Shown: positions 10,943 through 30,268 of the stretch, in pieces
Layout of the letters: every line of letters starts with the position of its first letter
How positions within the stretch are numbered: the first letter of the stretch is position 1
Source of the DNA: Phytoplasma sp.
GTDB lineage: Bacteria > Bacillota_I > Bacilli_A > Acholeplasmatales > Acholeplasmataceae
Direction: 5' to 3'
Assembly: GCA_012519065.1 (NCBI GenBank)
Contig: JAAYQV010000033.1
Span: forward strand, 1-45,978
Length of the DNA stretch: 45,978 bases
Notes under the pieces: generated by a model
What the model was told of the DNA's origin: nothing
Seen by the model: the letters and a program-made list of their open reading frames with translations, nothing else
Databases searched by the model: none
Made by a program: the position numbers and the translations under genes

Positions 10943-11259
10943 TATGATTCATCCATCTTTCTTAACATTTTTAAGTACTTCTCATCTTTTGTATGTTCGT
11001 ATTGATTCAAATAAGTGAGTCTTAATATTTTTTTTTCGTTTAATTTCAAAATTTGCTCATAGTTTAATAAGTGTTGTTCTACTTTATTGAGTTGGTCATA
11101 AACAGCATTTCTACTGATTGATAAAGTTGTTGCAATTTCCTGTAGGGAGTAGTCCTCATAATAGTAGAGTTGATAGTATTCTCTTTGTTTTTCTGTTAAT
11201 AAGTCTTGATATAGTTCAAATAGTTGGTTAAGTTTTTCAGTTTTTTCTAGTGCTTCCAT
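10942..11259 (-). CDS. ylxM: YlxM family helix-turn-helix protein (SRP-associated)
   Basis: LTEKQREYYQLYYYEDYSLQEIATTLSISRNAVYDQL; lies between ftsY and ffh. Confidence 0.92.
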   Translation of the reverse strand: MEALEKTEKLNQLFELYQDLLTEKQREYYQLYYYEDYSLQEIATTLSISRNAVYDQLNKVEQHLLNYEQILKLNEKKILRLTYLNQYEHTKDEKYLKMLRKMDES

Positions 11260-12215
11260 TAAAAGAACCCCTTGAATAATCCATATATATATTCTTCTAT
11301 ATCAAATGGTACTAAGTCTTCTATTTTTTCGCCTAATCCTACATATTTGATTGGTAGTCCGTATAAATGTCTAATTGCTAAAACAATGCCACCTTTTGAA
11401 GTACCATCTAATTTGGTTAAAATGATACCTGAAACATCGGTTACCTCATTAAAGACAGATGCTTGTGTCATCCCATTTTGACCAGTTGTAGCATCAATAA
11501 CTAAAAGCGTTTCTTGAGGGGCGTTTGGTAATACTTTTTGAATGACTCTTTTCATTTTGCCTAATTCATTCATTAAGTTTACTTTGTTTTGCAATCTTCC
11601 TGCTGTATCACATAATACAACATCATATTTTTCTTCTTTTGCTATTTTTAAAGCATCAAAAATAACACTAGATGGGTCTGTCATCGCTTCTTTATGATAT
11701 ACATAGGTGTTGCTTCGTTTCCCCCATTCTATAAGCTGTTCAATTGCTCCTGCTCTAAAGGTGTCTCCGGCAACTAACATAACTTTTTTGCCTTCTTGTT
11801 TTAATTGTTGAGCTAGTTTACCAATGCTCGTTGTTTTTCCTACGCCGTTGACTCCTACAAATAGATAAACGTTTAATTCTTCTTCATCATATCTTAAGGT
11901 GGTGTCAACAAACTCACCCTTTAAATAAATTTCAAACATTTTGTCAACAATGAGCTCTGACAAATCTATTGGGTTAGTGATTTTTTTATTAGATGCTTCA
12001 TTTCTGATTTCATTAACAAAATAAATGACTGTATCTACTCCAATATCTGCTTGAATAAATAAATCTTCTAATGCTTCATATAAGTCTTCATTAATTTCAT
12101 CTGATTCTTCTAATAATTTTTTTAAATTATCAAAACTTTCTTTTGCTTTATGTAAACCTAATTCATATTTTTCATTTTTGCTTTTTCTTTTAAATAATTT
12201 ACGAAAGAAACTCAT
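11259..12215 (-). CDS. ftsY: SRP receptor FtsY
   Basis: GVNGVGKTTSIGKLA, DTFRAGAIEQL, DTAGRLQNK, TKLDGTSKGG. Confidence 0.97.
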   Translation of the reverse strand: MSFFRKLFKRKSKNEKYELGLHKAKESFDNLKKLLEESDEINEDLYEALEDLFIQADIGVDTVIYFVNEIRNEASNKKITNPIDLSELIVDKMFEIYLKGEFVDTTLRYDEEELNVYLFVGVNGVGKTTSIGKLAQQLKQEGKKVMLVAGDTFRAGAIEQLIEWGKRSNTYVYHKEAMTDPSSVIFDALKIAKEEKYDVVLCDTAGRLQNKVNLMNELGKMKRVIQKVLPNAPQETLLVIDATTGQNGMTQASVFNEVTDVSGIILTKLDGTSKGGIVLAIRHLYGLPIKYVGLGEKIEDLVPFDIEEYIYGLFKGFF

Positions 12216-12287: not shown

Positions 12288-12317
12288 TAAAAAAAACCGG
12301 AATATTATACTTCCGGT
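12288..12317 (-). terminator. Intrinsic terminator of tpx
   Basis: ACCGGAA/TTCCGGT stem (12296-12317 on +) followed by a minus-strand T run; overlaps the tpx 3' end. Confidence 0.85.
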
Positions 12318-12805
12318 AAATTTCTAACAAATTCTAGTAAAGCATCATAGTTAGGATGTTTACCCATTTCATCTAAATATTCTAAATATACTATTTCTCT
12401 TTTTTGATTTAAAACAAATACAGCTCTACCTAATAATCGCATTTCTTCAATTAATAGGCCATATTTATTTGCAAAATCTAAATCTTTATAATCACTTAAG
12501 GTAATTGCGTTTGGAAGTCCTGCATTTGCACACCATCTTTTTTGGGCAAATGGTAGATCATTGCTTAAGGTTATTACCAAAGTATCTTCTTTCCCTGCTA
12601 ATTCTTGAATGATTGTTCTGGTCTGTAAATCACAAACTGATGTGTCTAATGAAGGTACACTATTTAGTACAATATACTTTTCATTGTAGTCTGATAAAGA
12701 AACTGGCTCTAAGTCTTGATTTAAGGCTGTAAAATCTGGTGCAATATCACCGATATTTCTTACTTGACCTAATACATGTATTGGTTTTCCCTTAAAAGTC
12801 TTCAT
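12305..12805 (-). CDS. tpx: Thiol peroxidase, atypical 2-Cys peroxiredoxin
   Basis: APDFTALNQDLEPVSLSDY, PSLDTSVCDLQTR, RWCANAGLPNAITLSDY. Confidence 0.95.
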   Translation of the reverse strand: MKTFKGKPIHVLGQVRNIGDIAPDFTALNQDLEPVSLSDYNEKYIVLNSVPSLDTSVCDLQTRTIIQELAGKEDTLVITLSNDLPFAQKRWCANAGLPNAITLSDYKDLDFANKYGLLIEEMRLLGRAVFVLNQKREIVYLEYLDEMGKHPNYDALLEFVRNLPEV

Positions 12806-12858: not shown

Positions 12859-12977
12859 AAAAAAACAAAGAAAAGGTCTTCTAGCAATTTTCTAGAAGAC
12901 CAAATCAAAGGGGATTTTTGTATACACTTTAATGTATACAGTAATTAGGGGATAAGTAGCATCCATTTTGGGATGCG
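12859..12977 (-). ncRNA. Candidate trans-acting small RNA with two C-rich (UCCCC) motifs, RoxS/RsaE-like
   Basis: Minus-strand promoter (13006-13011 TTTACA, 17-nt spacer, 12983-12988 TAATAT), three hairpins, and a 10-bp terminator stem (12875-12901) followed by TTTTCTTTGTTTTTTT. Single-stranded ATCCCCTAA and ATCCCCTTTGATTT lie between the hairpins. Confidence 0.65.
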
Positions 12978-12982
12978 CTCAT

Positions 12983-13011
12983 ATATTATCATAGGATTTT
13001 TATTTTGTAAA
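12983..13011 (-). promoter_or_regulatory. Sigma-A type promoter of the candidate sRNA
   Basis: TTTACA-17-TAATAT on the minus strand. Confidence 0.6.
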
Positions 13012-13033: not shown

Positions 13034-14833
13034 TTATTCTTCTTTCTTCTTTTCCAGTGTTCCAATATAACGACACTTTGGAAAATTGCTGCATCCTAAA
13101 AATTCACCATATTTACTTTTTCTAATGACCAATGGTGAGCCACATTCAGGGCAAAGTTGATCGGTAACTACGGGTTGGATTTTTTCCATTTTTTCATCTG
13201 CAAGTTTTAAACTAGGAATGAATCTTTGATAAAAATCACTTAACAATTCTACACCATTTACTTTTCCTAATGAAATATCGTCTAAATCTTTTTCCATGTT
13301 AGATGTGTATTCAACATTGATAATATGATTGAAAAACTCATCCAATTTATCGGAGGTTAAACGTCCTTGTTTGGTTGGTTTAAATCTTTTTTCTTCCATT
13401 TCAACATATAATCTATCCTTAAGTGTTTTAATGATTTGAGCATATGTTGACGGTCTACCAATACTAAGTCGTTCTAATTCTTTAATGAGGGTTGCTTCTG
13501 AAAATCTTGCAGGCGGAGTTGTGAATTTTTGTGTTGCAACAACTGATTTAGCTTGATAGGTTTCTTGTTCTTTGATTTCAGGTAATAGTTTATCTTTTGT
13601 GCTATCATCATATACTTTTTGATACCCATCAAAAATTCTAATCATTCCTTCAAGTCCATATGGATGGTTATTGCTTTCTAAGATGACTTTTGTTTGTTCA
13701 AAGACAGCATCTGACATTAAACTAGAAACTGCTCTTTGATAAATTCGTTGATATAGTTTAAATTCATCTTTTGATAAATATGGTTCTATAGATTCTGGCG
13801 TTCTTAAAACACTTGTGGGTCTGATAGCCTCGTGTGCATCTTGACTGCCTTCTTCTTTTTTAAATTGATATTTCCCTAAATATTCTTTACCATAAAATTC
13901 TTTAATAAAGTTTTGGGCATCTGTAACAAAGACGTTTGAAAGTCTGGTTGAATCGGTTCTCATATAGGTAATTAAACCCACAGGTTCACCATCAATTTCA
14001 ATACCTTCATATAATTTTTGGGCTACCATCATGGTTCTACTTGATGACATATTTAAGTTATTAACTGCATCTTGTTGCATAGTTGAGGTCGTAAATGGCA
14101 GTTTAGCTTTTCTTTTGGTTTCTTTTTTTGTTACAGATGTTACTGTGAATGGATTGATAGACTCTTCTACAATTTTTTTAGCTTCATCTGCTTTAATTTT
14201 ATAATCTTTTTTAATGATGTAATCTGCTTTAAATTTAGCAAACTCGGCAGTGATTGTGTGATATTCTTCTGGAATAAATGCTTCTCTTTCTTTTTCCAAA
14301 TCAACAATGAGTTTTAGTGCTACTGATTGTACACGACCTGCTGATTTTGATTTGATCTTTTTTTGTAATAAAGTTGATAATTTAAAACCGATAATTCTAT
14401 CTAACATTCTTCTTGCTTCTTGTGATTCAACTAATGCTTGATCGATTTTATCAGGATTTTTCATTGCTTCTATAACCGCAGGTTTTGTGATTTCTCTAAA
14501 TATGACACGGTTTTTAGCTTCCTTATCTAAATTAAGTACCTCTGCTAAATGCCATGCAATTGCCTCTCCTTCTCTATCGGGGTCAGTTGCTAGGTAAACT
14601 TCTTTTCCTTTAGCTTCTTTTATGAGGTTTTTAACCATTGTGCCTTTTCCATTGATGATTTTATATGTAGGGGTAAAATTATTTTCAACATCAATTCCTA
14701 AACCACCTGGACCAGACGTTGCTAAGTCTCTTATATGTCCTTTTGAAGAAAGTACAACAACATCTTCGTCTAAATAACGAGAAATGGTTGTAGCTTTAGA
14801 TGGGGACTCAACGATGATTAATTTTTTTGCCAT
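13034..14833 (-). CDS. topA: DNA topoisomerase I
   Basis: KKLIIVESPSKATTI, TOPRIM DPDREGEAIAWHL, active site YMRTDSTR, one C-terminal zinc finger CPECGSPLV..C. Confidence 0.98.
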   Translation of the reverse strand: MAKKLIIVESPSKATTISRYLDEDVVVLSSKGHIRDLATSGPGGLGIDVENNFTPTYKIINGKGTMVKNLIKEAKGKEVYLATDPDREGEAIAWHLAEVLNLDKEAKNRVIFREITKPAVIEAMKNPDKIDQALVESQEARRMLDRIIGFKLSTLLQKKIKSKSAGRVQSVALKLIVDLEKEREAFIPEEYHTITAEFAKFKADYIIKKDYKIKADEAKKIVEESINPFTVTSVTKKETKRKAKLPFTTSTMQQDAVNNLNMSSSRTMMVAQKLYEGIEIDGEPVGLITYMRTDSTRLSNVFVTDAQNFIKEFYGKEYLGKYQFKKEEGSQDAHEAIRPTSVLRTPESIEPYLSKDEFKLYQRIYQRAVSSLMSDAVFEQTKVILESNNHPYGLEGMIRIFDGYQKVYDDSTKDKLLPEIKEQETYQAKSVVATQKFTTPPARFSEATLIKELERLSIGRPSTYAQIIKTLKDRLYVEMEEKRFKPTKQGRLTSDKLDEFFNHIINVEYTSNMEKDLDDISLGKVNGVELLSDFYQRFIPSLKLADEKMEKIQPVVTDQLCPECGSPLVIRKSKYGEFLGCSNFPKCRYIGTLEKKKEE

Positions 14834-28911: not shown

Positions 28912-30051
28912 TTACACTAAATCTTTGAAAATATCAATTTTATTTGTGCGTTCCCATGTAAAATCTACATCATTACGTCCAAAGTGTCCGTAAGCTGCAG
29001 TATTTTTATAGATGGGTTTTTTTAAATCTAGATACTTAATAATACTTGCCGGTCTTAAATCAAAATGTTTTTTGATGGTTTCAAGGATTTTTTCATCAGC
29101 TACTTTTCCGGTTTTAAAAGTATCTATATAAATACCTACCGGCTCTGAAACACCAATAGCATATGAAAGTTGTATTTCACACATTTCAGCAATTTGTGAA
29201 GCTACAATGTTTTTTGCTAAATAGCGCGCCATATAAGCAGCACTTCTGTCTACTTTAGATGGATCTTTACCACTAAATGCTCCACCACCATGTCTTGAGT
29301 ATCCACCATAAGTATCTACAATAATTTTTCTTCCAGTTAAACCAGAATCTCCATGTGGACCTCCAATAACAAATCTTCCGGTTGGGTTAATAAAATATTT
29401 TGTTTTTTCAGTTAATAACTCTTTTGGCAATACTGGTAAAAAAACATGTTCCATAATTTTTTTATGTAATGTTTCTTGCGTGATGTCCTCATCATGTTGG
29501 GTAGATAAAACAACGCTATCGATATAAACAGGTTTATTTTTATCATAAGCGATGGTTACTTGTGTTTTACCATCTGGTCTTAAACCACTGATGATGCGTT
29601 CTTCTCTTACTTGAGTTAATCTTAAAGCTAGTTTGTGTGCCAAATCGATAGGTAATGGCATGTAGGTTGGCGTATCGTTTTTTGCAAAACCAAACATTAA
29701 CCCTTGGTCTCCTGCGCCTTGATCTTCTTTGTCAAGACCCATCGCTATGTCAGGTGACTGTGTATGAATTTTGTTGATGATTTCTAGATTATCATATGAA
29801 AATAAATATTCTTTTTTATCATATCCTATAGATTTAACCGTTTCTTTAACGATTTTTTCTACATTTATTTTAGCTTTGGTAGTGACTTCACCAAAGACAA
29901 TAACTGTATTGGTTGTTACCGCTGTTTCAACAGCAACTCTTGATTCTGGGTCTTGCTTTAATATTTCATCTAATATTGCATCAGAAATATTATCAGCAAC
30001 TTTGTCTGGATGTCCTTTTGTTACAGACTCACTTGAAAATAATTGATACAT
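28912..30051 (-). CDS. metK: S-adenosylmethionine synthetase
   Basis: [51 protein letters not shown]. Start at MYQLFSSES (30051); the longer ORF runs into the leader. Confidence 0.97.
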
Positions 30052-30072
30052 TTTTTTCTCCTTCTTTCTTAT

Positions 30073-30105
30073 AAAAAAATAAGCTCCCAAATAAGGAAGC
30101 TTATT
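30073..30105 (-). terminator. Riboswitch expression-platform terminator
   Basis: AATAAGCTTCC...GGGAGCTTATTTTTTTAT on the minus strand. Confidence 0.85.
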
Positions 30106-30108
30106 TCC

Positions 30109-30203
30109 CTTATTGATGAGTTTCCTCCTTAGTGGTGAGCACCTAATTTAAGTAGGTTGCTGCTATTTCATCGGCCACTTACGCCTCAATAGCTCTTAAT
30201 AAG
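30109..30203 (-). promoter_or_regulatory. SAM-I (S-box) riboswitch aptamer upstream of metK
   Basis: Minus strand CTTATTAAGAGCTATTGAGGCGTAAGTGGCCGATGAAATAGCAGCAACCTACTTAAATTAGGTGCTCACC matches S-box conserved elements. P1 is CTTATT/AATAAG and P2 is GCTATT/AATAGC. Confidence 0.93.
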
Positions 30204-30268
30204 TTTGATATGAACTTTTTAAGTATAGTGCTTATTTATTCTACTATATTAATATGGTTTTGTAAAGT

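Follow-up and report, generated by a model that had tools for sequence, protein, structure and literature searches.

The intergenic region between topA and a tpx-like peroxiredoxin gene in an Acholeplasma-like bacterium raises the question of whether it contains a gene for an independent regulatory RNA and, if so, whether that RNA belongs to the RsaE/RoxS family of C-rich regulators, as was proposed from the nucleotide sequence alone (hereafter the sequence-only reading). Mollicute-like bacteria lose most of their regulators, and we know of few, if any, conserved trans-acting sRNAs described in them. We examined this element within a window of 45,978 nucleotides (the whole stretch of DNA analysed), which belongs to a 1.1 Mb assembly of 199 contigs that is 91% complete, and then followed it through related genomes. 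As a whole, the observations are best explained, with a probability of about 0.74, by a self-standing non-coding RNA gene of ~115 nt whose C-rich arms would block the Shine-Dalgarno sites of a few mRNAs.

A probable small RNA gene between topA and tpx

The element lies on the minus strand, as do its neighbours: upstream topA, encoding DNA topoisomerase I (13034–14833; Pfam PF01131), and downstream the tpx-like gene (12305–12805, ATG at 12805; PF08534), which is followed by ftsY (11259–12215). Its sequence is that of a gene, probably, for a regulatory RNA of ~115 nt with two exposed C-rich stretches. The promoter described in the sequence-only reading, TTTACA-17-TAATAT, can be read at 12983–13011 and has in addition an extended -10: TTTACA at 13011–13006 is followed, after a 17-nt spacer, by TG-A-TAATAT at 12991–12983 (TAATAT at 12988–12983). 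The end of topA lies 22 bases before the -35 hexamer. Mollicute promoters have a 6-base spacing between the -10 and the start (Acholeplasma transcription start-site study, PMC5138195). By this rule, which makes the predicted start the first base of the 5' stem, we set the 5' end 6 nt past the -10, at 12976; it could also be at 12978–12979. The predicted sRNA then spans 12860–12976 (~117 nt). A pattern scan recovered both the promoter and the terminator of the sRNA; promoter matches (2 versus 3.7 in shuffles) were by themselves not above chance, and terminators numbered 2 versus 0.3 in shuffles.

The RNA begins, at or beside its 5' end, with a hairpin (GCATCC-CAAAAT-GGATGC, 12959–12976), followed by the first unpaired C-rich motif, UACUUAUCCCCUA (TACTTATCCCCTA), at 12946–12958. 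A middle hairpin of 9 bp, UGUAUACAU-UAAA-GUGUAUACA (12919–12940), separates this motif from the second, AAAAUCCCCUUUGAUUU (12902–12918), which includes ATCCCCTTTG at 12915–12906; on the minus strand, the stretch joining the middle hairpin to the terminator stem reads AAAATCCCCTTTGATTT. The RNA closes with an intrinsic terminator, identified by sequence, pattern scan and covariation, that has a perfect 10-bp stem (GGUCUUCUAG/CUAGAAGACC, 12901–12875) and a T-rich tract running to ~12860. Both hairpins are supported by fold and covariation, and both motifs by conservation and unpaired probability.

Folded as a single strand, the sRNA reaches -34.5 kcal/mol (z = -7.20), a value equalled by none of 200 shuffles. 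The minimum-free-energy structure coincides with the centroid and shows three hairpins, with both UCCCC motifs unpaired save for a weak 5-bp pairing around the second. Over the ensemble, the mean unpaired probability is 0.96 for the first arm and 0.89 for the second, compared with 0.62 for C in shuffles. Together with the folds of 17 species taken singly, each of which has these three hairpins and, in the linkers, the two UCCCC stretches, these results bear out the order of parts given by the sequence-only reading: hairpin, unpaired UCCCC, hairpin, second C motif and 10-bp terminator with a U tract.

Conservation, covariation and distribution

Plain DNA comparison detected clear copies in ~16 of 60 related genomes, and all of these, where the contig permits checking, adjoin topA or sit in the topA–ftsY region. 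The structure was first derived from a MAFFT alignment of 17 sequences, before any covariance model was built. Covariation among relatives, which the sequence-only reading had suggested as a check, was found in this alignment, where 13 of the 20 predicted pairs carry compensatory changes. Conservation of the hairpins and C motifs likewise held, at first in the 17 species and later in dozens more, and since the same architecture recurs in this way, we regard the element as above chance.

Two covariance models were then used, R1 and, from 60 copies, R2. Of the 160 genomes of the order, R1 detects the sRNA in 48 and R2 in 52. In a complete genome of 1.55 Mb, the best unrelated match to R2 scores 20.7 bits against 97.5 bits for the true copy; because the matches reported in other genomes score at least 33 bits, they are clear of noise. 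With the models built here, a sample of 395 genomes from the class gave 79 positives, distributed over at least nine families (f1, f3, f5, f9, f12, f16, f19, f24 and f26). There are up to three copies per genome, with two or three in some f16 genomes. A phylum sample, whose breadth is undefined, added no positive genome outside the class.

When 60 copies are aligned, 97.3% of the alignment cells are paired and each of the 20 pairs in the three helices shows double changes; covariation scores 0.759, compared with 0.226 for shuffles and no more than 0.144 for slid controls. Because these copies were aligned by fitting them to the model, such pairing and covariation counts are inflated, whereas the 17-sequence result is free of that effect. 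Within the same fitted alignment, helix 1 has double changes at 6 of 6 pairs (97.2% of cells paired), helix 2 at 6 of 6 (98.1%) and helix 3, the terminator, at 8 of 8 modelled pairs (96.8%).

The terminator stem letters vary freely provided that pairing holds, and the most constant parts of the sRNA are the single-stranded stretches ACUUAUCCCCUA and (A)UCCCCUU. Among the 60 copies, the core UUAUCCC of the first arm is 97–100% constant and its flanks 83–92%; in the second arm, CCC is 98–100% constant, the fourth C 73% and the next U 95%. The first motif contains CCCCUA in nearly all copies, and the second reads CCCCUUAAUU in most relatives. A related type of the sRNA, found in some lineages, has ACUUAUCCCUUACAUAGCAUG and ACACAUCCCCUUCCUUAA. 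Copies in family f3 (L107, L109, L112 and L147) have a shorter and more diverged form, GGCAUCCCUAUCCCAAA ... CCCCCUUUAA, and none was seen beside topA.

These patterns bear on whether the element might instead encode a small peptide. The window does contain an open frame of 24 codons, MDATYPLITVYIKVYTKIPFDLVF, and the sister species has a similar one. However, a ribosome site does not fit before its ATG, and conservation tracks helices rather than codons. The spacing of the C motifs is spread over the three phases (39/20/19) rather than being constant modulo 3, so the reading frame is not kept. We reject the peptide on the spacing and the lack of room for a ribosome site, and consider its existence extremely improbable.

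An exact pattern scan named as carriers Acholeplasma laidlawii, A. oculi, A. granularum, A. equifetale, Haploplasma modicum and the bacteria MO-XQ and zrk7. Five further exact-pattern matches (L033, L034, L036, L049 and L060) were attributed to chance, as they have no covariance-model match and their number is as expected. An A. laidlawii-like genome (G063), which we take to be A. laidlawii PG-8A, has a copy at 352,879–352,985 on the plus strand; a map of 607 start sites already exists for PG-8A (PMC5138195). In R1 and R2 scans of the order, the sRNA was not found in g8, a small-genome genus of the same family, which presumably represents the phytoplasmas. A second, cut-off copy of the 3' part of the sRNA lies at a contig start (L035:1–59) and probably reflects either duplication or the edge of the assembly.

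At the element, every Rfam family stays below its cut-off, and no published description of such an RNA was found in the literature, the Weinberg 2017 set of 224 RNAs lying outside the comparison. Judged by its comparative record, the sRNA is an uncatalogued conserved RNA family, extending across several bacterial families with a structure supported by covariation.

Independence from the neighbouring genes

Because the sRNA lies on the same strand between topA and tpx in the window, and most Acholeplasmataceae copies keep this place, it could in principle act in cis, either as a tpx leader or attenuator or as the 3' untranslated region of topA, ending in the terminator. The order topA–sRNA–(tpx)–ftsY recurs in families f1, f5, f9 and f16. 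Against such a role, the sRNA has its own promoter at a conserved, fixed position and a strong terminator ahead of the separate -10 of tpx. As the sequence-only reading had noted, this TATAAT follows the terminator (12845–12840); its poor -35 falls within the terminator T tract. The promoter of the sRNA matches at no fewer than 9 of 12 positions in 75 of 80 copies, compared with 16% of shuffled upstream sequences, and the -10 lies at its modal base in 68 of 80.

Location argues in the same direction. Several copies (L010, L016–L018) have no adjoining tpx; at L131, L139, L146 and L148 the downstream gene is on the opposite strand; the A. granularum copy (L063) is away from topA, between nanE-like and ABC transporter genes; and L045, L048 and L053 follow a divergent gene, as do f19-type copies, which come after a divergent sigma-factor-like gene. 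With the promoter at a fixed position and copies away from topA and tpx, the sRNA belongs neither to tpx as a leader nor to topA as a tail. Position has already largely refuted the cis-element interpretation, which we now consider very improbable, and the earlier statement that the element is not simply a tpx leader stands. The adjoining peroxiredoxin gene, to which the sequence-only reading had drawn attention, is uninformative, since in several relatives the sRNA has no tpx beside it or occupies a different locus.

From sequence and conservation we conclude that the sRNA gene is self-standing, with its own sigma-A promoter and its own terminator. The element thus has what is expected of a C-rich base-pairing sRNA, namely a separate unit with promoter and intrinsic terminator, and UCCCC motifs that are both single-stranded and conserved. 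The central proposal of the sequence-only reading, an independent, structured, trans-type sRNA gene in an Acholeplasma-like genome, is supported on these grounds. We infer that the RNA is transcribed, acts in trans and pairs with mRNAs.

The placement of some copies is suggestive of mobility. Related-type copies at L110 and L148 lie 35–40 bases past large serine recombinase genes, and that at L146 lies past an IS3-like transposase region, as if mobile elements carried the sRNA or inserted ahead of it. Extra f16 copies (L133, L134 and L137) have on one side a gene for a large, secreted-looking protein of ~950–990 residues and on the other an Hsp20-like gene, and may be connected with heat stress.

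Relation to RsaE/RoxS and other C-rich sRNAs

The sequence-only reading offered homology to RsaE/RoxS as one account of the element, and the likeness is real: a length of ~110 nt, an own promoter and terminator, and exposed UCCCC motifs. RsaE (RF01820) is also the top Rfam model for this stretch, and its AUCCCCUUUG is matched exactly in the window's genome. A strongly diverged true orthologue would account for these similarities in length, unpaired UCCCC and terminator. However, the model gives only 19.6 bits where its cut-off is 79 (E = 1 over 701 bases searched), and it matched in none of 120 genomes of the phylum sample while detecting the control, B. subtilis. No sequences intermediate between the sRNA and RsaE were found in that sample, again of undefined breadth.

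The details differ as well. Four C-rich regions and a CCCCUUUGUU duplication are described for RoxS (PMC4409812), whereas the sRNA has two C motifs, located in the linkers of three hairpins (one more than RsaE/RoxS), and lacks the duplication. The string in common with RsaE, CCCCUUUG, is particular to the window's genome and a small number of others. The likeness to RsaE had been suggested by the UUUG that follows the second CCCC, but relatives do not keep it, and most of them have AUCCCCUUAAUU. The loci differ too, that of the sRNA being topA–ftsY. RsaE/RoxS has a promoter controlled by ResD/SrrA, with a conserved box near -65; the corresponding stretch in the window is topA coding sequence. 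Given the score below cut-off, the absence from all 120 genomes, the presence of two motifs only and the unkept UUUG, we place the sRNA outside the RsaE/RoxS family and regard an orthologous origin as very unlikely; the proposed homology is not supported.

The sRNA is probably a functional analogue of RsaE/RoxS that would mask Shine-Dalgarno sites. C-rich region 3 (CRR3) of RoxS blocks the ribosome site of ppnKB (PMC4409812), and the UCCCC motifs of RsaE pair with G runs (PMC9217828). RsaE/RoxS acts in this way on redox and central-metabolism mRNAs, whereas for the sRNA the corresponding evidence consists of pairing predictions. Single-stranded C-rich regions are likewise a feature of FsrA, CsfG and the S. 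aureus UCCCC family, from which the sRNA differs in structure, clade and gene neighbourhood; PMC4409812 discusses such regions of Gram-positive sRNAs as likely to meet Shine-Dalgarno sites rich in G. RsaH (RF01821) has a UCCC motif and gives a sub-threshold Rfam match (17.5 bits versus a cut-off of 50), but many model pairs are broken in the alignment, and the sRNA is a non-member.

Predicted mechanism and targets

If the sRNA works as its structure suggests, the 5' hairpin and the terminator probably cap both RNA ends against exonucleases, while the middle hairpin would separate two single-stranded C-rich arms, ACUUAUCCCCUA and AUCCCCUU, which are exposed and nearly unchanged across the clade. 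These arms most likely pair with the G-rich Shine-Dalgarno sites of a few mRNAs and would block their translation, as do C-rich sRNAs of Bacillus and Staphylococcus.

Targets were predicted in a complete sister genome (G001), that of the nearest relative, with full shuffles, UCCCC-keeping shuffles, and coding and upstream windows as controls. G runs in this genome are more frequent at translation starts than at other positions, which is what ribosome sites would produce. In the target prediction, which the sequence-only reading had suggested as a check, neither arm paired with translation starts in G001 more strongly than shuffled arms did. A comparison of 446 orthologue pairs from two genera (800 kb compared in the second genome) gave no convincing case of conserved strong pairing, and in only 3 of the 446 does GGGG occur near the start in both genomes. 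Since the arms pair no better than shuffles and so few orthologue pairs share a G run, a broad anti-Shine-Dalgarno role is unsupported. GGGGG precedes 1.6–2.8% of genes. A target search for the first arm found GGGGATAAG before ATG 47 times in 61 genomes, compared with ~12 times for the reversed pattern; a few of the matches lie inside the sRNA gene itself.

The strongest single predicted pair in G001 is with khpA (-21.4 kcal/mol), which encodes an RNA-binding KH-domain protein of the KhpA/KhpB type (PF13083). The KhpA query consisted of 60 first residues from the genome and 22 last residues that are approximate. The ribosome site of khpA is AAGGGGG in nearly all family members examined, and in the window's own genome it reads GAAGGGGGAAATGAATAATG, which has GGGG. 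In a pattern survey of the order, with presence of the sRNA in each genome taken from the R2 scan, GGGG occurs at this site in 36 of 36 sRNA carriers surveyed versus 9 of 18 non-carriers (Fisher p = 9e-6, ignoring descent). The exceptions, in genera g6 and g10 and families f2 and f5, are genomes where the sRNA was not found. The ribosome sites of the neighbouring genes rarely have such runs (tpx 0 of 30, ftsY 1 of 28). This association is confounded by descent, because most carriers come from a single family and the G run is present in half of the non-carriers as well. We therefore name khpA as the best single candidate target only tentatively, at odds clearly below even. Almost the whole family Acholeplasmataceae (for example, L270, L269 and L271–L298) has a five-G run in place of AGGAGG at the khpA ribosome site.

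No Hfq was found in the window's own genome (91% complete), and in other Gram-positive bacteria KhpA and KhpB bind each other and co-sediment with sRNAs (PMC10117718). Together these two points make a loop in which the sRNA represses khpA attractive, though the pattern beneath it could also have arisen through shared descent. In its full form, an ancient sRNA of wall-less or simple Bacilli of Acholeplasma/Izemoplasma type would repress khpA, the gene of a candidate sRNA-binding protein and presumed partner, in a feedback loop that operates without Hfq, its copies having multiplied and moved in several lineages; we consider this scenario doubtful, and less likely than khpA being a target.

A different use of the arms is that the sRNA binds or titrates a protein through its constant single-stranded motifs rather than pairing with mRNAs. 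Constancy of the first arm extends over 12 nt, beyond the demands of pairing with GGGG or a Shine-Dalgarno site, and the lack of a genome-wide pairing excess in G001 and of Hfq in the window's own genome would fit such a role. Yet UCCCC arms placed between hairpins and a terminator match those of proven pairing sRNAs (PMC4409812, PMC9217828), and the khpA ribosome-site pattern favours pairing. We judge protein binding to be unlikely, though well ahead of the cis-element, orthologue and peptide alternatives, and retain pairing with a few mRNAs as the preferred explanation. The sRNA offers a concrete, conserved candidate for Mollicute-like bacteria, with a testable target in khpA and a covariance model ready for annotation.

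Elsewhere in the window, a SAM riboswitch (RF00162) was detected at 30107–30205 on the minus strand, with a score of 45.0 bits just over the cut-off of 44.4. It lies directly upstream of an open reading frame on the same strand (28912–30090) that reads as metK.
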